This document shows, in pieces, positions 4,210-37,998 of a stretch of DNA of 42,258 nucleotides (the stretch's first letter is position 1; each line of letters starts with the position of its first letter). Source of the DNA: a virus; IMG/VR virus record IMGVR_UViG_3300033182_000660, positions 1 to 42,258 of that record, one strand, 5' to 3'. Position numbers and translations under genes: made by a program. A model generated the notes under the pieces. The model did not search any database, was not told the origin of the DNA, and worked only from the letters and a program-made list of their open reading frames with translations.

Positions 4210-5055
4210 CTAAAATCCATACTCCTCTTTTCTTGTTTTCATCGCCTCGAGCCATTTTTCTTTTATCTTTGGGTTTTTCTTAAAATTAAAACTACCATAA
4301 GTATCAAAAAATTGTGCAGAAAAATCTGCAAATTTCATAACTTCTTTAAATTTATCTCTTTTTCTTTTAACCTTTATTAAAGGATAAAATATTCTTGCAA
4401 ATAAATGGATCTTTGTCATTTGATATATTTTAACATCATAACAAGGTTTAGTTTCATTAGGTCTTTTTTGTTTTTTAACAATTTTTGCAACAACTTTCTT
4501 TTCTTTCTTAAAAAGATTTAGTATTTTATTTAGATAAGCTCTTACAAGTCTACAAACTTTTAAATTAGAAGAAGTAAAAGTAAGTATATTTATAAATCTA
4601 TAATTTTTAGATTTTTTATTAAATTCTTTACCAACAAATATACATCCTTCAGCATCAAAATAACCGGCCAGCCAAGCCCCTCTTACATTTATACCAGTTA
4701 TTGTATTATTTAATTTAAAGTTATTTTCTTCTGCAAATTTTTTAACTATATCTTTTTTTTCTACCATGTAGGGATAAATCATTTGTGTAAAATGAATTGC
4801 ATCTTCACCATCTAATACAGTCATCCATTGATCTTGATGATGTTCTTTTCTTCTTTTTTTAAAATAAGTTTTTTTACCATATAATTCATTAAGTTCGTCA
4901 ACTACATTTTTATCAATCAAATTTAAACTGTATCTTAATCTTTTATAATTTTTACCTCTACTCATAAAAGATCCATCACCATCAGCCATACCTGCGTGAT
5001 AAGCCCAAAAACCTAAATCAGTATTCTCTTCTATTTTTTTATATTTATCTGTCAT
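4210..5055 (-). CDS. LAGLIDADG homing endonuclease (free-standing)
   Basis: A 281-aa protein with two LAGLIDADG-type motifs: YHAGMADGDGSF at 19-30 and WLAGYFDAEGCI at 128-139. Each carries the catalytic acidic residue (D/E just before G). Two motifs in one chain indicate a monomeric enzyme with pseudo-twofold symmetry that cuts a long asymmetric DNA site. It is not inside an intron or intein here, but sits between the methyltransferase gene (ATGA overlap) and the exonuclease pair. Such free-standing genes usually target a nearby site in related phages lacking them. It is very Lys-rich and AT-rich, which suggests later acquisition. Confidence 0.85.
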   Translation of the reverse strand: MTDKYKKIEENTDLGFWAYHAGMADGDGSFMSRGKNYKRLRYSLNLIDKNVVDELNELYGKKTYFKKRRKEHHQDQWMTVLDGEDAIHFTQMIYPYMVEKKDIVKKFAEENNFKLNNTITGINVRGAWLAGYFDAEGCIFVGKEFNKKSKNYRFINILTFTSSNLKVCRLVRAYLNKILNLFKKEKKVVAKIVKKQKRPNETKPCYDVKIYQMTKIHLFARIFYPLIKVKRKRDKFKEVMKFADFSAQFFDTYGSFNFKKNPKIKEKWLEAMKTRKEEYGF

Positions 5056-6368: not shown

Positions 6369-7430
6369 TTAGTTTATTGTGTTTGATTTATAATAAATAA
6401 AATAATTATTTCTTAATCTCGCTGATTTATATGCAGGAACCAAAATAATATATTTTCTAGTTCTCAATTTAGACATCACTTTTTGAGCTTTTTCATATAT
6501 AGAACCTTTAACTTTTTTAAGATCTTTCACTATTCCAATAATTTGATCATACATCCAGCTATTGTGATAAGGATTAAAATTAGGATTAAATTCTAAATGA
6601 AACCTAGCCTCTATCATATCTGATTTATTAATTAAATTTCTAATCCATTCATAAATTTGTTCTTTTTTATCCTCGCTAACATTTAAATTTTGATCAACTG
6701 CATCACATAATTTATCATAATGTTTTTGCATTGCTTTACTCATTTGATTTCTGTAATTAATTTTTTCTTTTTTTTCTTTTAATTCTACATTTGAAAAAAA
6801 TTCAGCTTCTTCTATTTGTTTTGGTTTAACATTAACAGAAGTAAATGTTTCGTAAAAACCAGTGTTTATTAAATCTCTAGAATTTTTAATAGTTCTAAAT
6901 TTTTGTAAAGCTCTTAATTCCGTTTGTCTTACTCTTTCTTTTGTAATTTGAAATTTTAATCCTATCTCTTCATAAGTATAACAGTGTTTATCTGGATTTA
7001 TTCCATAACGCATTCTAATAATTTTTTCTTCTCTAGGGCTTAAACAATTAGACATAATCTCACCTATCTTAGAAGTTACATCAGATTCAATAGCTCTAAT
7101 CTCTTGATTTTTAGCTGGATTAATTAATTTTAATAATTGTTTTTCTTCCATTTTAGTTTCAAAAGTAGTTCTACTAAATCCTTCCATTTGTCTCTCTGTA
7201 AATGCTTCTTCTACATCTATTCCTAATAAATTTAAAAGATTTTCACATTGTTTTGATAAACTTCCATTATTATTTAAAGGTGGTCTTTTACCACTTATAA
7301 TTTCATTTGTTGAAACATAAGGTAAATTATATTTTTTACAAAACGACGATACAGATGGATGTCCCATTGCTTCAATAGCAGATAGTAATCTGTCATTTCT
7401 TATTGTTACTTTAATTCTATAATCTTTCAT
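6369..7430 (-). CDS. Phage regulator with XRE-like and sigma-70 region 4 domains
   Basis: A 353-aa protein. Residues ~10-75 look like a lambda-repressor/XRE-type helix-turn-helix (SVSSFCKKYNLPYVSTNEII, then SGKRPP). Residues ~125-182 match sigma-70 region 4: LSPREEKIIRMRYG (130-143), YTYEEIGLKFQITKERVRQ (151-169) and ELRALQKFR. No region 2 (-10 recognition and core binding) is evident, so it is not a full sigma factor. It probably binds -35-like DNA or redirects host RNA polymerase. The C-terminal ~170 residues are Lys-rich helices of unknown role. It has its own near-consensus promoter and an AAGGAG site five bases from the ATG. Confidence 0.78.
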   Translation of the reverse strand: MKDYRIKVTIRNDRLLSAIEAMGHPSVSSFCKKYNLPYVSTNEIISGKRPPLNNNGSLSKQCENLLNLLGIDVEEAFTERQMEGFSRTTFETKMEEKQLLKLINPAKNQEIRAIESDVTSKIGEIMSNCLSPREEKIIRMRYGINPDKHCYTYEEIGLKFQITKERVRQTELRALQKFRTIKNSRDLINTGFYETFTSVNVKPKQIEEAEFFSNVELKEKKEKINYRNQMSKAMQKHYDKLCDAVDQNLNVSEDKKEQIYEWIRNLINKSDMIEARFHLEFNPNFNPYHNSWMYDQIIGIVKDLKKVKGSIYEKAQKVMSKLRTRKYIILVPAYKSARLRNNYFIYYKSNTIN

Positions 7431-27142: not shown

Positions 27143-28045
27143 CTATTTTATTTTTTCACCATCGTCAATACGTTTTAAAGACTGTAATTCGTCTAAGAAA
27201 CGTCCACAATAAGAGTGTTCACCAACATGTGTTATATAGTCTGAAACATAGGCAAATACTTTACCACCCATATCTCTCCATCTTTGACAGAATCCAAAGT
27301 CTTCACCATAATATCTTTTGGTTTCTGGGTCATGTAATGTATCAAATAAATTATAAAAATTATCTTTTTTAGTTTCTTTTCCATTTATTACAGTTGGTTG
27401 GTATATTTCTAGCTCAGGATATTTTTCTATCATTTTTGTAATAACATGTCTTTTTATCAACATACATCCTGTAGGTACATGTGTTGCTTCTATAATATCA
27501 TTCTCCATAGCTATTCTATTTTTATCAGGTACCTTAATAGGAAACATATATCCAGATTTGATAACATCGCTTTTCTTTTTTATCATTTCATATTTTTCAG
27601 TTAATACTTTCCACATCTTATCTTGATCAATAGTCTTCATTGGATATGGACATGCAATGACATCTTTGTCTTTTTCAATCATATTGATAATAGTAGAATA
27701 TTGAAAGTCGATGTCAGAATCTATAAACAATAGATATTCATAATCATGTTCGTGATTTAAAAAATCAGCTACACATAGATTTCTACCTTGTGTAACTAAA
27801 GAAGATTTCAATAATGTAAAACTGACTAATATATTATTCTTGATACACTCTTGTTGAAACTTTAATACAGCCTGAGTGTAATGCATTGATACTTCAGAAT
27901 GACATGGTGTACATACCATAATCTTGTATTTAGGCTGTCCACCTAAATTTATTTCAGTAATTACATTGCCTGTTTTTATAGTTTGATAAGTATCATCGTT
28001 TGGTTTTACTTTTTTATTAAACCATATTGGATCATTGTTTCGCAT
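27143..28045 (-). CDS. GT-A-type glycosyltransferase
   Basis: A 300-aa protein with a GT-A fold. The nucleotide-sugar metal site is LFIDSDIDF (DSD, 109-111), after a beta-alpha unit (KIMVCTPCHSEVSMHYTQAV), and an acidic, aromatic GEDFGFCQRWRDMGG motif (~254-268) is the usual acceptor/base region. Relatives add single sugars to proteins, lipids or nucleobases. It overlaps the next glycosyltransferase by 14 nt, so the pair is co-expressed, and sits inside the tail region. Substrate unknown; tail proteins or lipopolysaccharide are candidates. Confidence 0.8.
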   Translation of the reverse strand: MRNNDPIWFNKKVKPNDDTYQTIKTGNVITEINLGGQPKYKIMVCTPCHSEVSMHYTQAVLKFQQECIKNNILVSFTLLKSSLVTQGRNLCVADFLNHEHDYEYLLFIDSDIDFQYSTIINMIEKDKDVIACPYPMKTIDQDKMWKVLTEKYEMIKKKSDVIKSGYMFPIKVPDKNRIAMENDIIEATHVPTGCMLIKRHVITKMIEKYPELEIYQPTVINGKETKKDNFYNLFDTLHDPETKRYYGEDFGFCQRWRDMGGKVFAYVSDYITHVGEHSYCGRFLDELQSLKRIDDGEKIK

Positions 28046-28979
28046 TAATTGCTCCTTCTAAAAATCGTGTCCAGGCTAAACCTTGTTTGTTCCAGTTATA
28101 ATATTTGTTTGTGTATTTTATTTGAAATTTTAGATGTTCATTTACTGCTTCACTTTCTAAAGATTCCGCAGCTGCTTCTATAGCAGCAGCAAATTTAGTA
28201 GCTAATAATTTATAGTTATCTGTGTAGGGAATATAAATAGGAAACTCAGCGCCTGTTTCAAACAATGCACCAAGATCAGTTGTTATACAATACAAACCTG
28301 CTGCCATACATTCTAATAAAGATATACAAGATGTTTCTTCAAACGTGCTTGGATAAGCATACATTCTATATTTGTTTAGATTTTCTCTAATATATTTATT
28401 TGGTTTGTAGCCAATATAATTTACATTTGGTAATGCATCTGCTTGTTCATAAAGTGTTTGATAGTATTTATCATTTTGTTCATAAAAGCTTTTGCCATAT
28501 ATTTCTGTAGATGAATATACATCTAATGTAATCAAAGGATTATTTACTAACTGCATTGCACCTAATAAAATATTTAATCCTCTCCATGGTGTGTTTTGAT
28601 GTATGATTCTAATTGGTTTTCCTTTTTGATATGTTGTTTGTACAGGCTCTATTTTTTCTATACCGTTTTTTATAACAACACATTTCTCAGTAGGTAATCC
28701 AAAATACGTTCTAAACTTTTCATAATTCCAATGACTATTAAATACATACCAATCATACTTTTCATGATTAGATTTATTTTGAAACCATGGCGCAAGATTC
28801 GGTTGATCGTAAGAATTTTTCTGCCACAGAATATTTACTTTATCTCTATCTATAGGAACTTTTCCAGGTATAGATGTACATATTTGTACTTTATCTAATA
28901 GACTTGGATCTACATTATTACGTAGAAACTCAAACTGTAATTCTGTTCCGCCTTTAGGGTTTTGGTTTTTTATTATCAT
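28032..28979 (-). CDS. GT4/GT1-like glycosyltransferase
   Basis: A 315-aa GT-B-type protein. The C-terminal Rossmann domain shows VVIKNGIEKI (~114), the RIIHQNTPWRGLNILLGAMQ donor-fold strand and helix (~135-155), and the conserved PSTFEETSCISLLECMAAG (E-x7-E, ~215-233). The N-terminal GGTELQFEFL start fits the acceptor half, but it is short for the family (usually 350-400 aa). Together with the adjacent GT-A enzyme it probably builds or trims one glycan. Confidence 0.8.
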   Translation of the reverse strand: MIIKNQNPKGGTELQFEFLRNNVDPSLLDKVQICTSIPGKVPIDRDKVNILWQKNSYDQPNLAPWFQNKSNHEKYDWYVFNSHWNYEKFRTYFGLPTEKCVVIKNGIEKIEPVQTTYQKGKPIRIIHQNTPWRGLNILLGAMQLVNNPLITLDVYSSTEIYGKSFYEQNDKYYQTLYEQADALPNVNYIGYKPNKYIRENLNKYRMYAYPSTFEETSCISLLECMAAGLYCITTDLGALFETGAEFPIYIPYTDNYKLLATKFAAAIEAAAESLESEAVNEHLKFQIKYTNKYYNWNKQGLAWTRFLEGAINAKQ

Positions 28980-30391: not shown

Positions 30392-31242
30392 TATCTACTC
30401 GCTGCAAAATCTTTATTTGCTTGTTCATAAACACCTGAAGGAGCTGATCTTGCTCCACCATTTCCACCGCCTCCGCCTCTCATGATTGGAGGAACATTAC
30501 TAGCAGCACTTCTTCTAGCCATTTCTTCAGCAGCTTTTCTATTTCTTCTTCTTTGAATAAATTCCATAAGATTGTCTGATTGAACAAAATCACTTCCTCT
30601 AAAATTATTATAAGCTTGACGCAAACCACCTAATCCTCTTCTTGCTATATTTAATGGAGTTGGAATATTTCTTAAAAACTCAAATAGTTTTCCAATACCA
30701 GATGGTTCTTGACCAGGTAAATATTCTACTTGTTCTTCATCTTCTTCGTTTGCTACACCATAAGAAGTGTCAAAACCTAATGACGTAGGTGCTACATCCA
30801 TTATACCTCCAGATACATCAAACATATTAAATGGTTGGTTATATAATTTATTTGATACAGCCATTCCAGTATCTGTTGGCTCTGGTGCGTTATAAAATAT
30901 AGATTGTTCAGGTCTACTCACTCTTGGATTAAAGTTTTCAAATCTTGCTAAAGATTCATAATTAGAACGAAGTGGTTTTTTATCAAAGTAATTTACAAAA
31001 TCTATTCGTCTATTAATATCTGTAGATATATTACCTGATAAATCATCAGCTCCTCTTCTGAATTGTCTTTCCATAAAACGTGGAGTTCGATACTCAAATC
31101 CTGGTTGCATTGCTTGAAGTAAATTAGATGTAGCAATAGGAGCAGAAGCGTCTTGATAAAGACCTTCATAATTAATTTGTGGATTAGCAGATGCTCTAAC
31201 TACATCCAATAAATCATATATACCATTACCTAGATATGCCAT
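30391..31242 (-). CDS. Hypothetical virion-region protein, 283 aa
   Basis: A 283-aa protein with much Asn/Arg/Phe and few recognisable motifs. The N-terminal half is likely folded (YLGNGIYDLLDVVRASANPQ), residues ~185-235 are basic helices (IPTPLNIARRGLGGLRQAYN), and the end is a Gly-rich, low-complexity tail (GGGGGNGGARSAPSG). It sits directly after the P22 gp10-like gene, with a one-base overlap. Probably structural; no homologue recognised. Confidence 0.5.
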   Translation of the reverse strand: MAYLGNGIYDLLDVVRASANPQINYEGLYQDASAPIATSNLLQAMQPGFEYRTPRFMERQFRRGADDLSGNISTDINRRIDFVNYFDKKPLRSNYESLARFENFNPRVSRPEQSIFYNAPEPTDTGMAVSNKLYNQPFNMFDVSGGIMDVAPTSLGFDTSYGVANEEDEEQVEYLPGQEPSGIGKLFEFLRNIPTPLNIARRGLGGLRQAYNNFRGSDFVQSDNLMEFIQRRRNRKAAEEMARRSAASNVPPIMRGGGGGNGGARSAPSGVYEQANKDFAASR

Positions 31243-33209
31243 TATCTTCTTCCATCGGGTTGTGCATCAAGTCTTAGAGTACCATATCTCCAAGTTTCAC
31301 CTGTGCCATCGTTTTCTATTTTAAGAGCTACTAATCTTGCTCTTGCTCGAGTATCTATCTTATCAGTAGTTGACGTAACTGTAAAGGGTCCAAGTGGTGA
31401 ACTTGAAGCCGTATTGTTTGGATAGTCATTTAGTAATAAAGTAATTTTTGCATTACCTGTTTGTCTAGCAAAATCAGGTATAAATCTTTTAACAGACATA
31501 AAGAACTCACCATCTCCTTTGTAATTTGCAAGTCCTGTTTGTTGACCTAATGCACTTCTTGTTGCTGTAATATCATAATCTCCAGATTGAATAAACGCAG
31601 CAATAGCTGTTGTACCAGAACCTTTTACTTGATCAGTTCCAACTTCATGAGCATAATAAGTTGAAGCTCCATAAGTATTTGTAATTCCTTGAATAGGAAT
31701 ATTAGGAGTTTCTGTAGAATTATATTCAGTTGCATATGGCACATTAAATACTCCAGTATCAATATAAGTTGTTCTAGCTAGAGAAGAAGTTGTCCAACAG
31801 TTTTCACCATAGTTATATGTTACACATCTATCTATTTGATCTGATCCTGACTTTGGATAAAACCAGTTTACTTCATTATATAATGTATTGTGTTCTCCAT
31901 AAACTATATCAGATGCATCAAAGTTAAGTCCAAGATTGCTTCCAGTTGTAGTAAACACAAAGTCTTCTACTAAACAAGGTATTGATTTTACTGTACCATC
32001 AAACACAAAAAATCCACCTTCGCCTGACATCCAAAATACTTTACCATCAGAATACGTTAATGCGTGTTGACCAATTAATCCACAGTTGGTACCAACTTGT
32101 CTAACACTAAATGTAAATGGTGGACCAACAAATTGAATTACATATGCAGCGCTGTCTGTTAAAACTAAAGTATAATCTTTACCAGATACAGCTCCAACAA
32201 TTCTATTACCTTTATCTAATCTAAAACTACCTGCAGTATTTACTGCAGTAGCAGCATATGTATTTAAATCTTCTTGATTTGAAAATCTTATAAACAATGG
32301 ATCAACAGTTGATGTATCACCAATAGTTGTTTCTGTTCCAAAGTGAAACAAGTGTCTGTCTCTATCAGAAACTTGTGTAAGTCTAGACGACGTTGGATTA
32401 TTTGATGTTGCAAAGTTTGTAGTTGTTGTTGATGCTCTAATTGTTCTTGCATTTGAAGCTCCAGCATTCCATGTAAAAGTTTTGTTATCTCTAATTGTTG
32501 CAACTAATACTTCTCCAAAATTATCTAAACTCCAGTTTCCTGGATCTAGAATTACGTCACTTGTAGATCTTTCAGTACCCCATGTTGATGTACTCCAAGT
32601 ATCTGTACCCCAACCATAACCTGCAGTTTGATTTACAGGTCCAACTGTTACGTATGGATTTACTGATGCAGAACCTGCAGCTGTCATTCCAGTTCCAGAT
32701 TCACTAGACGCCATTGTAATTGTAAAACTATTTGTAGAAGCTGTAATTACTTCATAAGGTGTGTCTGTAAAATCAGACGTTGCATATCCTGTAGCACCAC
32801 CTCCAGGTAGAGTTACAGATGTAAATGTAAAATATCTTCCAGCTTCTAAACCATGAGATGTTTTATTAATTGTTACAGTTGCTGACCCATTAGTTGATGT
32901 AAATGTACAAGATGTAATTGCTGTATCTAATGGTGTAATGTCATAAAAATCATTTCCATAATATAAAAACAAACCTTGTGATGTTCCTATTGCAGCATAT
33001 TTTTCTCCTGCAATACTAGTCCAAGAATGTTGTGCTCTTGCAGCTCCTGGTAAAGTCTTACTAGCTGCAGTTAATTGATTCCAACCTCCTATTTTTTCAG
33101 GAAGTCCATATCTAAATCTGACAAAATCACCATCTACCCATTGAGATTCTGCCCCTGATTCAGTAACCATCTTGTTAAAACCGGGCTTGAAATTTAATTT
33201 TTGTAGCAT
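31242..33209 (-). CDS. P22 gp10-like tail nozzle/stabilisation protein
   Basis: A 655-aa beta-rich protein. The start (MLQKLNFKPGFNKMVTESGA, then ESQWVDGDFVRFRYGLPEKIGG) is the hallmark of the phage stabilisation (P22 gp10-like) family. Repeated WxxxxGEKYAAIGT and WMSGEGGFFVFDGT segments suggest a beta-propeller. In P22 this protein closes the portal channel after packaging and carries the tail needle and spikes. A promoter for the opposite-strand oxygenase cassette lies within its first codons and just upstream. Confidence 0.75.
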   Translation of the reverse strand: MLQKLNFKPGFNKMVTESGAESQWVDGDFVRFRYGLPEKIGGWNQLTAASKTLPGAARAQHSWTSIAGEKYAAIGTSQGLFLYYGNDFYDITPLDTAITSCTFTSTNGSATVTINKTSHGLEAGRYFTFTSVTLPGGGATGYATSDFTDTPYEVITASTNSFTITMASSESGTGMTAAGSASVNPYVTVGPVNQTAGYGWGTDTWSTSTWGTERSTSDVILDPGNWSLDNFGEVLVATIRDNKTFTWNAGASNARTIRASTTTTNFATSNNPTSSRLTQVSDRDRHLFHFGTETTIGDTSTVDPLFIRFSNQEDLNTYAATAVNTAGSFRLDKGNRIVGAVSGKDYTLVLTDSAAYVIQFVGPPFTFSVRQVGTNCGLIGQHALTYSDGKVFWMSGEGGFFVFDGTVKSIPCLVEDFVFTTTGSNLGLNFDASDIVYGEHNTLYNEVNWFYPKSGSDQIDRCVTYNYGENCWTTSSLARTTYIDTGVFNVPYATEYNSTETPNIPIQGITNTYGASTYYAHEVGTDQVKGSGTTAIAAFIQSGDYDITATRSALGQQTGLANYKGDGEFFMSVKRFIPDFARQTGNAKITLLLNDYPNNTASSSPLGPFTVTSTTDKIDTRARARLVALKIENDGTGETWRYGTLRLDAQPDGRR

Positions 33210-33214
33210 ATAAT
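33187..33214 (+). promoter_or_regulatory. Promoter of the oxygenase cassette
   Basis: On the + strand TTGAAA (33187-33192), 16 bases, then TATAAT (33209-33214, perfect). The start would be near 33221, 34 bases before the ATG at 33255. The -35 and spacer lie in the first codons of the gp10-like gene on the other strand. This supports starting the first oxygenase at 33255 and not at the ATG at 33216. Confidence 0.7.
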
Positions 33215-33254
33215 CATGTATATAGCATTATTAGAAATAAGAAAAGTAAGAAAT

Positions 33255-33755
33255 ATGATAAGGATTATAGACAATTTCTTTGAAAAAGAAACATTAGAAA
33301 AAATACAATATCACGTAACTCATAAATTAATGTTTACGCCAAGATATTTTAGTGGAACAAATGAAAAATCAAAAGAAAATTATTATGGGGACAGATTTGA
33401 TTTCAAAGATGATCCAGGTTTATTTAATATATTTCTAAATCAATCAGAAAAAAAATTTAATATTATAATAAATAAAGCAGTGGGTGGAATTGACATGAGA
33501 AATTTAGATAATTTCAAGCCTCATACAGATGATGATTTATCCAAATTAAATATTTTAGTGATGGTAAAAGGTATTACTGCAGTTACTAATGGAACTGTAT
33601 TTTACACAGATGGTCAATTAGATGTTCATGTAGGATTTAGAGAAAATAGAGCTTTAATGTTCCCTGCAAATAAATTACATAGTCCACATAAAAGTGAACA
33701 AATAGGAATGAGAAGATATACAGCAAGTATATTTATACAAGAATATGAGTCTTAA
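33255..33755 (+). CDS. 2OG-Fe(II) oxygenase, cassette gene 1
   Basis: A 166-aa protein starting MIRIIDNFFEKETLEKIQYH. The oxygenase core is short, with H90-x-D92 (FKPHTDDD) and a distal His at H142 or H145 (KLHSPHKSEQ), and R153/R154 (MRRYTASIF) as the 2-oxoglutarate anchor. It lacks the GGE-type loop of classical prolyl hydroxylases. It is the first gene of the + strand cassette and overlaps the next one by 11 nt. Substrate unknown. Confidence 0.75.
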   Translation: MIRIIDNFFEKETLEKIQYHVTHKLMFTPRYFSGTNEKSKENYYGDRFDFKDDPGLFNIFLNQSEKKFNIIINKAVGGIDMRNLDNFKPHTDDDLSKLNILVMVKGITAVTNGTVFYTDGQLDVHVGFRENRALMFPANKLHSPHKSEQIGMRRYTASIFIQEYES

Positions 33756-34227
33756 TTTAAAAATAATAGATAACTTTTTTTCTGAAAAAGAATTTAAAAT
33801 TCTTCAAAGTAATACATTTAACTTAGATATGAGACCTATGAACAATGAAAATGGAACATATGGTTTTAGACATACGTTTGATGTTGATAAAAATAATCAA
33901 TGGTTATTTGATAAAATTAAACAAAACTTTTTTCCAGATAAAAACTTAAAAGTAGTTAATGCTTGTTATCATTTAAGACACAACAAAGAAAAAGTAATGA
34001 GTCATACTGATGGTCCAGATTATAATTTTATTCTTTATTTGAAAGGTCAAGAGTTGGTTTACAATGGCACAGGTTTTTATGATAAAAATAATAATTTAAA
34101 TACTTATATAGGTTTTTTAGAAAATAGAGCTTTGTTTTTTGATGGTAGAAATAATTTACATACAACCTTACAAGCTTTAGGTGAAAGTTCACCTAGACAC
34201 ACTATTAATATATTTTATGAAAAATAA
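33745..34227 (+). CDS. 2OG-Fe(II) oxygenase, cassette gene 2
   Basis: A 160-aa protein similar in layout to cassette gene 1 (both start with a LKIIDNFF or RIIDNFF core, then a helix). H87-x-D89 (MSHTDGPDY), H139 (NNLHTTL) and R151 (SPRHTINIF) form the expected iron and 2-oxoglutarate site. The two may have arisen by duplication: in both, the site is followed by NF/LNI-x-L-x-KG and later a GF-x-ENRAL-x-F strand. The downstream gene starts within its last 11 bases. Confidence 0.78.
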   Translation: MSLNLKIIDNFFSEKEFKILQSNTFNLDMRPMNNENGTYGFRHTFDVDKNNQWLFDKIKQNFFPDKNLKVVNACYHLRHNKEKVMSHTDGPDYNFILYLKGQELVYNGTGFYDKNNNLNTYIGFLENRALFFDGRNNLHTTLQALGESSPRHTINIFYEK

Positions 34228-34780
34228 TATGAAAGATCATTTAGAAGCAGTTATTCATATACAAAATATTGTAAATCCTGAGTTCTTAAAAAGAATGAAA
34301 TCTTTTATAGATAAAAAAGCAAAGAAAGATTTAAGAGTTGGTTATAACCTTATTAATAAGGATATTAGAAATGTAAAAGGATATCATTTAAATTTTGATA
34401 CACCCACTAATATATTTTATTGGAATTACATTAAACATGAAATTGAAAGACTTTTAGTTTATTACACAATTAAATTTCCACTATTAAAAACTAGAAAAAT
34501 AGATCAAATAGATTTACTTAAATATGGTCCTGGAGGTAAATATACTGTTCATGTAGATGATCAAACTCACACTCCTAGATCTTTAAGTATAATTATTAAT
34601 ATTAACGATGATTATGTTGGTGGAGAATTAATTTTTACGGATCAAAAACATAATGAAATAGAATCTTTTGATTTAAAAAAAGGTTCAATCGTATTTTTTC
34701 CAAGTAACTTTATGTATCCTCATGCAATCAAACCAATTAAAAAAGGTATAAGATATAGTATAGTTTTATGGCTTCGATAA
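34217..34780 (+). CDS. 2OG-Fe(II) oxygenase, cassette gene 3 (prolyl 4-hydroxylase type)
   Basis: The clearest family member in the cassette: LLKYGPGGKYTVHVDDQ has H112-x-D114, YVGGELIFTDQ is the GGEL strand, MYPHAIKPI gives H169 and KKGIRYSIVLWL gives R179. These match the prolyl 4-hydroxylase alpha-subunit type, which hydroxylates proline in proteins. The frame is open to 34181, but the ATG at 34217 (or 34229) fits the junction better. It overlaps its neighbours by 11-13 nt. Confidence 0.85.
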   Translation: MKNNMKDHLEAVIHIQNIVNPEFLKRMKSFIDKKAKKDLRVGYNLINKDIRNVKGYHLNFDTPTNIFYWNYIKHEIERLLVYYTIKFPLLKTRKIDQIDLLKYGPGGKYTVHVDDQTHTPRSLSIIININDDYVGGELIFTDQKHNEIESFDLKKGSIVFFPSNFMYPHAIKPIKKGIRYSIVLWLR

Positions 34781-35346
34781 TTAAAAATTTTTTTTCTAAA
34801 GACGAATTAACAATACTTCAAAAGTATTGCTATAATAAATTAGATCTAGATAAAGATTGGACAATTACCTCTCAAAGTTTTTCACCATCCTGGTACCACG
34901 ATCCTTTTATGACTGCCTTATTAGATATAAAATTACCTATTGTATCTAAGGAAAGTAAATTAGAATTATTCCCGACTTATGCTTATTGGAGATATTATGT
35001 TTTCGGTGGCACATTAAAAAAACATACTGATAGACCTTCTTGTGAAATATCAGTATCTTGCTGCATAAAAAAATATGATAATTGGCCAATAATAGTAGAA
35101 GATAAAAAATTTGAATTAGAGGAAGGAGATGCAATTTTATATAATGGTATATATGAAAAACATGAAAGACCTGGTACATATAAAGGCGAGGGAATGGCAC
35201 AAGTCTTTTTTCATTATATTAATAAACATGGTCTTTTTAAACATCATGCTTATGATAATTTTATAAAAAATGAAGGAATACGAATGACAGAAAAAGATGA
35301 AAAAAATATGGAGGAAATGATTAAATGGAAAAGACAGTTAATATAG
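34768..35346 (+). CDS. 2OG-Fe(II) oxygenase, cassette gene 4
   Basis: A 192-aa protein. The site is H86-x-D88 (LKKHTDRPS) with distal H132 (EKHERPG); the usual basic residue is not obvious, with R134 a possibility. An aromatic YAYWRYYVFGG strand comes before the site. The C-terminus is a Lys/Glu-rich helical tail (KNEGIRMTEKDEKN). It starts 13 nt inside gene 3 and overlaps gene 5 by 22 nt. Confidence 0.75.
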   Translation: MASIIKNFFSKDELTILQKYCYNKLDLDKDWTITSQSFSPSWYHDPFMTALLDIKLPIVSKESKLELFPTYAYWRYYVFGGTLKKHTDRPSCEISVSCCIKKYDNWPIIVEDKKFELEEGDAILYNGIYEKHERPGTYKGEGMAQVFFHYINKHGLFKHHAYDNFIKNEGIRMTEKDEKNMEEMIKWKRQLI

Positions 35347-35915
35347 ATAATTTTATTGGCGTATATGATGGATACATTACACCTGAAGAATGTAATAAAG
35401 CTATAGAGCTTTTTGATCAACAAGATAAGATGAAAAAAACATTTAATAGAATTACTTCAGAGAATGGTAGACCTACAGTAGACATACAAGATCAGCATTA
35501 TTTTGCAAATTGTACAAATATAAATGTTTGGTGGACAGAATTAAAAACTTTAATTTTAAATTTTGACCAAGCTTTTAGACATTACATAAAAGCTACAGGA
35601 GCTGATTCCGTATGTGGAGAGTTTCATTACACAGTTTTAAAACTTCAAAAAACATTAAAGACAGAGGGTTATCATCTTTGGCACATAGAACATGGCTCTG
35701 GATATGAAAACGAAGCCCGTTCTATGGTTTTTAGTGTTTATTTAAATGATGTAGAAGAAGGTGGAGAAACTGAATTTTTACATTTTTCAAAAAGAGTAAA
35801 ACCTAAAAAAGGAAGAATAGTTATTTGGCCTGCAGGTTTTCCATATGTACACAGAGGTAATCCGCCACTTTCTGGTGAAAAATATATACTGACTTCATGG
35901 ATGAATCTAAGATAA
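35325..35915 (+). CDS. 2OG-Fe(II) oxygenase, cassette gene 5 (HxE variant)
   Basis: A 196-aa protein with the prolyl-hydroxylase-like C-terminal half: YHLWHIEHG (H120-x-E122), NDVEEGGETEFLHFSKR, then WPAGFPYVHRGNP (H176) and K186 in SGEKYILTSW as the likely 2-oxoglutarate ligand. The first iron pair is H-x-E in place of the common H-x-D, a variant seen in the TauD/clavaminate group, or an alternative ligand may be used. The stop lies 19 nt inside the next gene. Confidence 0.78.
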   Translation: MEKTVNIDNFIGVYDGYITPEECNKAIELFDQQDKMKKTFNRITSENGRPTVDIQDQHYFANCTNINVWWTELKTLILNFDQAFRHYIKATGADSVCGEFHYTVLKLQKTLKTEGYHLWHIEHGSGYENEARSMVFSVYLNDVEEGGETEFLHFSKRVKPKKGRIVIWPAGFPYVHRGNPPLSGEKYILTSWMNLR

Positions 35916-36346
35916 AACCTTTGCCAGCTAGACAATGTGGTGACTGTACTAAGTGTTGTGAGGGTTGGCTATCAGGAGAAGCTTATGGATATAACTTTTT
36001 TCCAGGTAGATATTGTCATTTTTTAAATAAAACAAAAGGACAAGGAGGTTGTGCAATATATGAAGATAGACCTTTAAAGCCATGTAGAACTTTTTCATGT
36101 TCTTGGTTATTAAATCCCAAAATTTTCCCAGAGTGGTTAAAACCAGAAAAAAGTAAAATAATAATTAGTATACAAAAACATAAAGAATTTGAATATTATG
36201 AATTTAAACCTTGTGGACAGGAAATGTCTGTAAAAGTTTTAGATTGGCTGCTTGAATTTTGGCTTACATATAAAGTAAACGTTGTTTATTTTATAGAAGG
36301 ATCTAGAAGAAAACTAGGATCAGAGGATTTTGTTAAATCTTTTTAA
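35897..36346 (+). CDS. YkgJ-like cysteine-cluster (metal-binding) protein
   Basis: A 149-aa protein with the Zn/Fe-chelating cysteine-cluster signature: CGDCTKCC (14-21), then C40, C52, RPLKPCRTFSC (C63, C68). Such proteins carry eight Cys; the exact ligand is not established. It begins inside the last 19 nt of oxygenase gene 5 (different frame), so it is the sixth gene of the cassette and co-expressed. It may supply or insert iron for the oxygenases, or be an independent enzyme. It converges end to end with the next minus-strand gene. Confidence 0.8.
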   Translation: MDESKIKPLPARQCGDCTKCCEGWLSGEAYGYNFFPGRYCHFLNKTKGQGGCAIYEDRPLKPCRTFSCSWLLNPKIFPEWLKPEKSKIIISIQKHKEFEYYEFKPCGQEMSVKVLDWLLEFWLTYKVNVVYFIEGSRRKLGSEDFVKSF

Positions 36347-36715
36347 TTAAGATGAATATGATGTAGGTCTTGCACCTAATCTAGCAATTTTTTGTTCTGA
36401 TGTTTCATCATCAACATTATCTGCATCCCAATCAGCTTGTAATTTAGCTAAATGAGCTGCATCCCATTTGTCGATAAATTGAGTTTGAAAACTTCCTAAA
36501 TTAGCATCCGTCCAACTAGTGTGTGCAGTTGAATCTCTATATTCTACTTCATCTGAAGAATTAGTTGTTCCATATTGAACTGCCCAAATATTTGACCATT
36601 TAGATTCTGACCAAAAAGAATCATTATCAATTTCATAGGCTCCTGCATCATCACCACTTTGTTTGATGATTAATTTATCGTCAAAAACTACTGTCCATGA
36701 TCCTTTACTTGCCAT
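36347..36715 (-). CDS. Small tail-region protein, 122 aa
   Basis: A 122-aa acidic protein with a beta-rich N-terminus (GSWTVVFDDKLIIKQSGDDA) and a helical tail (WTDANLGSFQTQFIDKWDAA). The SNIWAVQYG segment is one I have seen in marine phage tail modules. No function known; it follows the collar gene by 11 bases and is the last gene before the inverted cassette. Possibly a tail-fibre chaperone. Confidence 0.55.
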   Translation of the reverse strand: MASKGSWTVVFDDKLIIKQSGDDAGAYEIDNDSFWSESKWSNIWAVQYGTTNSSDEVEYRDSTAHTSWTDANLGSFQTQFIDKWDAAHLAKLQADWDADNVDDETSEQKIARLGARPTSYSS

Positions 36716-36726
36716 CTTATTTCTCC

Positions 36727-37293
36727 TTAAGTTTTAATAACATATATAATTGTTAAATATGGTTGTAGCACTGATGTTGAATCTCCAACAAAGTTAGCAC
36801 TCATGTTATGAGAATGTCCACTGCCAGAACCTGCATTACCTGTACCACCTGGGTTTTTAGATGGAGTTGGCTCAGCACCTGAACCACCAGACGGAGTAAA
36901 ACTTCCAATAGATACTGGGTGACTGTGAGTTGCTAATTGTGCTGTTGTTAAAGTTGCATTAGCTGTAGAACCTGCAACGTTTCCAGTAGACTGAACAGTA
37001 TTTGCTCCACCAGTTGAAGCTAAAGCTTTGTTGTTTGATTTACCAACTGCTACGTTGTCTTGTAAATCTGGAACATTGAAAGTTGTTGAACCATCACCTG
37101 CACCATAAGTTGTACCTACAATAGCAAATAAAGCTGAGTAAGTAGTTCTTGATACAGCTGCACCATTACACTCTAAGAAACCTGAAGGTATTGAAGAGTC
37201 TGACCATGGTACGATTGTTCCTGTAGGGATACCTTCGATACCAGTAAGGTTACCACCATCAAAATCATATTTAGTTGCTTCGTAATTTGACAT
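36727..37293 (-). CDS. Phage tail-collar domain protein
   Basis: A 188-aa protein with the tail-collar domain (about 22-82). It starts at GTIVPWSDSSIPSGFLECNG and continues through YGAGDGSTTFNVPDL. A Gly/Ser/Pro-rich linker (about 130-160) and a beta C-terminus follow. Collar domains occur in tail fibres and short tail fibres that touch the host surface. The start is directly next to the stop of the upstream tail gene. Confidence 0.85.
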   Translation of the reverse strand: MSNYEATKYDFDGGNLTGIEGIPTGTIVPWSDSSIPSGFLECNGAAVSRTTYSALFAIVGTTYGAGDGSTTFNVPDLQDNVAVGKSNNKALASTGGANTVQSTGNVAGSTANATLTTAQLATHSHPVSIGSFTPSGGSGAEPTPSKNPGGTGNAGSGSGHSHNMSANFVGDSTSVLQPYLTIIYVIKT

Positions 37294-37296
37294 ATT

Positions 37297-37998
37297 CTAT
37301 TTCTCCCTATAAGTCCAACCTGTTGTAGCGTCTCCAGAATAAACTAAACTGAAACCAGCACCTTGTGTATTAACAACAAGGTCTGAAGCTGCATTAGCTA
37401 TATTAGAGCCGTTTCTTCCAACAGTCAATGCGTTAGTATTAAAATCATAACCTTGGTCTATGAATGAGACCTCATCACCAGTTGAAGGCGATGCAGGTAG
37501 AGTAATTGTTACAGCTCCACCATTTGTATTTACTAAAAGTTGAGCACCAGCTTGAACTGTTTCAGCAGCTGATACTGCTCTCCAGTTTCTTTGCTCAGAT
37601 AATTTTACAATGTTTGTACCATCAGAATATAATACATAGTTGTTTCCTTCACATAAAAGAACACCTGTACCTGATGAAGTTTTGAAAGTTAAAGTGTTTC
37701 CTGCATGGTCACATGCGTTTTGTACGTTATAAACTTTTTCAATTCCATCTGGAATTGTAACATTTAAGTTTCCTGCTAATGTACCTGTTAATTTAATAAC
37801 ATCATTTTTACCATTTGATAAAGCACCATTAGAAAAAGTTAATGCTCTACTAGCATTCGTTACGTTGAAAGTTGTAAAACCACCAATTGCTTGTTCAAGA
37901 ATTAGTAAGTTTGTATTTGTAATTTGACCCCAAGTTCCTGAGTTTTCACCAGTAGCTTGTACAGTCAGTTTTAAATTAGCTGATGTTGAGTTTGCCAT
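37297..37998 (-). CDS. Tail-fibre-like virion protein, 233 aa
   Basis: A 233-aa beta-rich protein; the start (MANSTSANLKLTVQATGENS, GTWGQITNTNLLILEQAIGG) is a recurrent marine phage tail-fibre start. The C-terminal half has turns rich in Gly/Asn/Thr (TNGGAVTITLPASPSTGDEV) like fibre shafts. It lies between the large LamG fibre gene and the collar gene. Probably a fibre or fibre-attachment subunit. Confidence 0.7.
   Translation of the reverse strand: MANSTSANLKLTVQATGENSGTWGQITNTNLLILEQAIGGFTTFNVTNASRALTFSNGALSNGKNDVIKLTGTLAGNLNVTIPDGIEKVYNVQNACDHAGNTLTFKTSSGTGVLLCEGNNYVLYSDGTNIVKLSEQRNWRAVSAAETVQAGAQLLVNTNGGAVTITLPASPSTGDEVSFIDQGYDFNTNALTVGRNGSNIANAASDLVVNTQGAGFSLVYSGDATTGWTYREK

Follow-up and report, generated by a model that had tools for sequence, protein, structure and literature searches.

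A strand-inverted, variable slot of 2-oxoglutarate oxygenase genes in the tail operon of a pelagiphage, a possible tail-linked decoration module

Pelagiphages, which infect SAR11 bacteria, are among the most abundant viruses of the sea, and few of their genes without an explained role are as common as those for 2-oxoglutarate (2OG) oxygenases. In this study, we analyzed a stretch of viral DNA of 42,258 nucleotides (nt) (IMG/VR record IMGVR_UViG_3300033182_000660, positions 1 to 42,258; the window hereafter) and, within it, six plus-strand genes inside a minus-strand tail operon, five of which are predicted 2OG-Fe(II) oxygenases. For HTVC023P-type pelagiphages, the available part of one study describes eight 2OG genes that are not orthologous to one another and that often lie together with a "ferrochelatase", and gives the rule that the "ferrochelatase" is always adjoined by a 2OG gene (PMC9599517). 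The available part of a second study reports PHROG 61 and PHROG 2954 as enriched in seasonal pelagiphage-related contigs (PMC11561400). Membership in the HTVC023P type is defined by a PolA similarity of at least 45% to cultured phages (PMC9599517). Because the PolA of the window has 73% identity and 84% similarity to that of Pelagibacter phage HTVC027P, and its tail block is syntenic with that of HTVC027P, the window is, judged by sequence, an HTVC023P/HTVC027P-type pelagiphage. The genes gp72–gp74 of HTVC027P (MN698241) occupy the same inverted slot between orthologous flanks, and gp73 is the orthologue of the window gene that we call oxy5 (68% identity); gp74 and gp72 belong to slot oxygenase families 3 and 9 (2OG-FeII_Oxy_5). 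The HTVC027P slot differs in holding three genes instead of six, in lacking oxy1–4 and the Cys-cluster protein described below, and in having gp73 as its sole annotated oxygenase. The cassette of the window represents one allele of a fixed, strand-inverted and hypervariable cargo slot; on balance, we lean towards the view that this slot acts as a tail-linked decoration module whose substrate we infer.

The six genes overlap one another and run from 33255 to 36346 (+), as the original prediction had described. The first, oxy1 (33255–33755, with an in-frame upstream ATG at 33216), is a 2OG-Fe(II) oxygenase-like gene of the PHROG 274 family, and oxy2 (33745–34227) is its diverged paralogue (28% identity). 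They are followed by oxy3 (34229–34780), which is of the 2OG-FeII_Oxy_3 type and PKHD-like; oxy4 (34768–35346), a predicted 2OG oxygenase of PHROG 2954 with the database label "ferrochelatase"; oxy5 (35325–35915), the anchor 2OG oxygenase of PHROG 61 (HxE...H...K); and a Cys-cluster protein with a CxxCxxCC motif (35897–36346), an optional rider. The overlaps of 11–22 nt between successive genes hold with the alternative oxy3 start at 34217. The last gene stops one base short of the convergent right boundary gene p122 (36347–36715, −), which encodes a 122-aa protein without known function; beyond it lies a tail collar-domain protein (36727–37293, −). The left boundary is a virion structural protein gene of the tail backbone (phrog_3287; 31242–33209, −). 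Ratios of nonsynonymous to synonymous substitution (dN/dS) of about 0.08–0.36 against close relatives indicate purifying selection on all six genes (oxy1, 0.09–0.27).

Viral contigs were scanned with oxy4, the Cys-cluster protein and both flanking genes, and the 191 loci carrying both flanks were reduced to 99 distinct slots. The loci used are those with the highest scores in larger sets, so the slot diversity is a lower bound. Between orthologous flanks, the slots measured 632–5846 bp and held 1–10 genes each, mostly of 160–220 aa and nearly all on the plus strand, and 81% of neighboring plus-strand genes overlapped. By cluster assignment, 370 of 419 cargo genes (88%) were 2OG oxygenases. The oxy5 family was present in all 99 slots, followed by oxy3 (73), oxy4 (62), the Oxy_5 family (38), oxy1/2 (30) and then a long tail; besides oxy5, each slot had 0–8 additional oxygenases, which fall into about 20 sequence clusters. 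An unbiased subset of 64 slots had been fetched without an oxygenase query; here oxy5 was again universal (64/64), at least two oxygenases were found in 56 slots and at least five in 13. Five oxygenases in one unit had been thought unusual; this did not hold, because about 20% of slots contain five or more, and six oxygenase-family genes stand in a row in pelagimyophage Mosig. Close relatives with a single oxygenase and frame-broken remnants of the others had been named in advance as evidence against the cassette. Such single-oxygenase relatives exist (eight distinct slots with oxy5 alone), and no frame-broken copies were found. Rare cargo comprised sulfotransferases, TylF-type and other methyltransferases, a NodU-type carbamoyltransferase, a Trp halogenase, a GT9-like protein (weak match), and ParB-like and kinase-like proteins. 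A fixed slot in the tail operon, filled to 88% with 2OG oxygenases and otherwise mostly with tailoring enzymes, supports the proposed link of a dedicated modification module to the tail locus. In cluster 13 (L297, L111, L306, L182 and others), a slot oxygenase is fused to an N-terminal DUF6817 domain.

Turnover is much faster in the slot than in the backbone genes on its flanks. The Jaccard similarity of cargo was unrelated to flank identity (rho 0.02 for the left flank and 0.00 for the right), and in pairs whose left flanks were at least 92% identical, the right flanks had a median identity of 77%, while the next 1.2 kb leftward was still at 91%; recombination breaks cluster at the slot. The two backbone genes that frame the slot, tail655 and t233, co-varied with each other (rho 0.5–0.6), whereas the oxygenases hardly tracked either of them; the correlations of oxy5, oxy4 and oxy3 with tail655 were 0.18, 0.03 and −0.07, respectively. 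With the C-terminal half of the collar protein, the same three genes reached 0.41, 0.50 and 0.26. The slot oxygenases co-varied with each other and with this collar half more than with the intervening p122, and the partial correlations with the collar, given tail655 and p122, were 0.44, 0.49 and 0.27 (permutation p 0.005–0.01). Split-half reliabilities of 0.55 for p122 and 0.71 for the collar shrink the contrast without removing it. In eleven loci (L161, L185, L191, L303, L306, L312 and others), 2–3 extra tail-collar paralogues lie between the slot and p122.

In our preferred reading, phages would exchange the block by homologous recombination at its conserved edges, and the enzymes would be made during infection as a combinatorial kit for hydroxylation and decoration. 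The target would most likely be residues or glycans exposed at the tail tip of the virion, with the host surface a less probable one, and the modified product would matter for host recognition. A more specific version, to which we give only tentative and minority weight, is combinatorial post-translational modification of the receptor-binding tip: the anchor oxygenase and its swappable partners would hydroxylate the hypervariable collar end, some alleles would sulfate, methylate, carbamoylate or halogenate it, and enzymes and substrate would be exchanged as one block. If so, not only sequence but also chemistry would tune the host range.

Several observations weigh against the decoration module. 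The co-variation with the collar may be caused partly by linkage, and at loci where the slot opens with oxy3 it is weak. Between two H[S/T]H motifs, the collar has a hypervariable loop (57 of 57 distinct) that is rich in proline (9.8% vs 3.8%), yet the number of prolines in this loop did not follow the number of oxygenases (rho 0.11, p 0.48), and the loop of HTVC027P has no proline at all. In T4-like cyanophages, relatives of oxy5 and oxy4 also occur among replication genes. The HTVC027P transcriptome paper, in its available part, simply names gp73 as a 2OG oxygenase. Prolyl hydroxylation of the proline-rich collar loop failed the count test, and we keep it as a weak idea only.

We also considered that the slot is a mere permissive landing site or recombination junction, which gathers small beneficial or neutral genes and whose position in the tail operon has no functional meaning. 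The clustering of breaks at the slot, the general abundance of oxygenases in marine phages and the presence of unrelated cargo such as the ParB-like and kinase-like genes would fit such a site; a cargo drawn to 88% from one enzyme superfamily, with one member never missing and catalytic residues conserved, would not, and we regard this explanation as unlikely.

The five oxygenase calls of the original prediction hold. Two reach the Pfam 2OG-FeII_Oxy_3 cut-off of 27 bits (oxy3 62 bits, oxy5 45 bits), and oxy3 also resembles the NCBIfam PRK05467-type dioxygenase (4e-15, under that model's cut-off). Although oxy1 and oxy2 remain under the Pfam cut-off (E 0.03), profile–profile comparison links their family to Pfam-positive slot families (probability 87–96%) and oxy4 to oxy1/2 (84%), and it gave no link between the oxy1/2 or oxy4 families and non-oxygenase cargo. 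Catalytic residues are kept throughout: H120-x-E122, H176 and K186 of oxy5 in 98–99 of 99 orthologues, HxD/H/R in 76 of 76 members of the oxy3 family and in 35 of 35 of the oxy1/2 family, and H86-x-D88 and H132 in 60–62 of 62 members of the oxy4 family; the basic 2OG residue (R/K) was pinned down in the oxy1/2, oxy3 and oxy5 families. The jelly-roll (double-stranded beta-helix) fold is assigned to oxy3 and oxy5 by Pfam, to oxy1/2 by profile–profile comparison only and to oxy4 by predicted structure. By these sequence criteria, oxy1, oxy2, oxy3 and oxy5 are members of the 2OG-Fe(II) oxygenase superfamily with predicted activity, and the structural model places oxy4 in it as well. The PHROG 274 label "DNA endonuclease V" looks wrong, as this family matches oxy1, oxy2, oxy3 and oxy5, the oxy1/2 family as well as Pfam-positive 2OG oxygenases; the places concerned are window 33255–34227 and L320:5615-6127. 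Two oxy4 homologues (L246 and L304) are probably catalytically dead though retained, because D88 and H132 have been lost together.

The "ferrochelatase" label of oxy4 bears on the published reading, in which the oxygenases and a ferrochelatase partner are auxiliary metabolic genes that reshape host iron and haem or central metabolism. No Pfam match to oxy4 was found, and a PDB sequence search gave nothing useful. A model built from 44 homologues (predicted local distance difference test score, pLDDT, 93.9; predicted template modelling score, pTM, 0.90) has 2OG oxygenases as its PDB neighbors, with E-values down to 1e-8: 3dkq, prolyl-4-hydroxylases, PHD2 and the chlorella-virus enzyme vCPH. A predicted fold without a jelly roll had been named in advance as evidence against the cassette; the oxy4 model does have one. 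Among the best fold matches listed, there were oxygenases and no ferrochelatase fold, and matches in a viral library carried both labels, "ferrochelatase" and 2OG oxygenase. Ferrochelatase models matched neither oxy4 nor the "ferrochelatase" of P-SSM7 (Pfam E ≤ 1, NCBIfam E ≤ 0.1); the Mosig "ferrochelatase" had no Pfam match, and its only NCBIfam match was a weak one to an Fe2+-dependent dioxygenase. We disfavor a ferrochelatase identity of oxy4, since sequence models were unmatched and the predicted fold is that of a prolyl-hydroxylase-type oxygenase. The label of PHROG 2954, and of PHROG 3531, which bears the same name, looks wrong on this structural prediction, and oxy4 looks like another 2OG oxygenase. 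Examples labelled "ferrochelatase" under PHROG 2954/3531 (PHROGs, GenBank) are window 34768–35346, L320:4845-5615 and L321:3971-4543. One half of the PHROG 3531 profile matches oxy4 and the other half oxy3; because of this and because oxy4 stands directly after oxy3 in 58 adjacencies (62 slots with oxy4), a paired action of oxy3 and oxy4 is probable, and the published rule of a 2OG gene next to every "ferrochelatase" follows from this pairing. Bacterial homologues of oxy4 had no clear gene context (one Lysobacter example, by eye).

The metabolic reading is favored by the co-location and seasonal enrichment of these genes in the two studies cited above, and in Mosig by haem oxygenase and bilin reductase genes directly adjoining its oxygenases. 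At the loci studied here, the haem link falls away because PHROG 2954 is, by predicted structure, a 2OG oxygenase without a ferrochelatase match, and fast turnover inside a tail operon is atypical of core metabolic aids; we consider this reading distinctly unlikely. Somewhat less probable still is the modification of host proteins (EF-Tu, ribosomal proteins) to redirect translation. The fold matches of oxy4 do include a prolyl hydroxylase from Pseudomonas putida whose complex with EF-Tu has been solved (4iw3), but a conserved host target leaves the rapid combinatorial turnover and the co-variation with a tail protein unexplained. We judge AlkB-like modification or demethylation of nucleic acids, either to shield phage DNA or to target RNA of the host, to be very improbable: the best PDB matches of the oxy1/2 profile are AlkB-type DNA N6-methyladenine demethylases (E only 0.16) and cyanophage homologues of oxy4 and the Cys-cluster protein lie beside or near DNA methyltransferase genes, but the top folds of oxy4 are PKHD/prolyl hydroxylases with AlkB homologues ranking lower, the slot lies in a tail operon, and its co-cargo consists of sugar- and protein-type tailoring enzymes.

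The sixth protein of the cassette had been called YkgJ-like and taken as a supplier of iron. It does have the CxxCxxCC motif and is related to phrog_9155 (1e-34), but it scores only 14 bits with Pfam PF03692, under the 23-bit cut-off, and no PDB homologue was found by sequence or fold. The motif cysteines C14, C17, C20 and C21 together with C40, C52, C63 and C68 vary little or not at all among 53 sequences, which suggests a putative metal- or cluster-binding protein. It occurs in 3 of the 99 slots (the window and two relatives), and an oxygenase is in reach at only 16 of the 83 loci with a homologue. As the family thus occurs mostly apart from oxygenases, an iron-donor role finds no support and was rejected.

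At the left edge, the promoter-like string TTGAAA-16-TATAAT, which the original prediction had taken as the near-consensus start of the cassette, is indeed present at 33187–33214 (+) as a single exact copy in the window, overlapping the beginning of the tail gene on the other strand. Its reading as a promoter is doubtful: of the 99 related slots, only 18 have it exactly, its TTGAAA lies inside the coding sequence of the opposite gene, and a longer 36-nt block just downstream, TTATATATTAGTTTTATAGAGAATGAAAG, is the best conserved left-edge element. From the aligned left edges of the 99 slots, the consensus TAnTnnnTTATATATTAGTTTTATAGAGAATGAAAG was obtained, of which the window has a degenerate copy at 33211–33246 (+). 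The element precedes many different first genes, also at loci with another tail-gene start. With a model from 74 distinct sites in 87 slots, the HTVC027P slot scored 43.5 and the runner-up site in the genome parts scanned 8.6, and the window copy scored 7.3 against a shuffled maximum of 5.1. The element may be a candidate promoter or 5' leader and a crossover site. No Rfam RNA reached its gathering score in 32900–37300.

Elsewhere in the window, another (sixth) 2OG-Fe(II) oxygenase is encoded close to the left end of the fragment, a long way from the slot (1144–1734, −; Pfam 43.5 bits). Two glycosyltransferase-like genes of the same tail operon (27143–28979, −; one Anp1-like and sub-threshold, one of glycosyltransferase group 1) are conserved in HTVC027P. 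A 353-aa protein (6369–7430, −) has by eye a sigma-70 region 4-like helix-turn-helix and no HTVC027P match in the parts compared, and a free-standing LAGLIDADG-type homing endonuclease, also judged by eye, is at 4210–5055 (−). In a SAR11 single-cell genome (L350:2635-7091), a prophage-like tail region lies by NADH dehydrogenase genes, and an oxy4-like gene and a second oxygenase gene follow tail-type proteins. Like the Mosig run, this likely prophage sets oxygenase genes beside tail genes, in favor of the tail-linked reading.

The genes of the slot and their clustering are already known. In the available parts of the cited literature, we found no fixed slot with an invariant anchor, no account of its turnover or of its co-variation with the collar, and no correction of the ferrochelatase label. 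With the slot, its universal anchor and the co-variation with the tail tip, the vague notion of an "auxiliary metabolic gene" gives way to a specific hypothesis that is testable in the cultured pair HTVC027P/HTCC1062, and the correction for PHROG 2954/3531 touches published conclusions on viral haem and iron metabolism. The clusters of 2OG and "ferrochelatase" auxiliary metabolic genes in HTVC023P-type phages (PMC9599517, PMC11561400) come from the same lineage and include the same families, PHROG 61 and 2954. In the available parts of those papers, PHROG 2954 is read as a ferrochelatase, and a fixed inverted slot, an invariant anchor, turnover and collar co-variation do not appear. Since p122 was found in no phage record other than HTVC027P, cyanophage synteny is unusable for comparison. 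The metaviromic islands of marine phages are variable as well and have Fe(II)-dependent oxygenases among host-recognition genes; as far as the available part of that work goes, their definition comes from read recruitment and concerns other phage groups, without an oxygenase slot (PMC3909814). The closest solved folds to oxy4 are those of P. putida P4H, PBCV-1 vCPH, PHD2 and the putative oxygenase 3dkq, at 11–18% identity. In pelagimyophage Mosig EXVC030M, the six consecutive oxygenase-family genes (Mosig_00055–00060) lie between tail-fibre and neck genes and include PHROG 2954 and a PHROG 274-type gene annotated as endonuclease V. This run differs from the slot described here in that it belongs to a T4-like phage, is, in the part shown, collinear with the genes of the virion, and is followed by the bilin genes.

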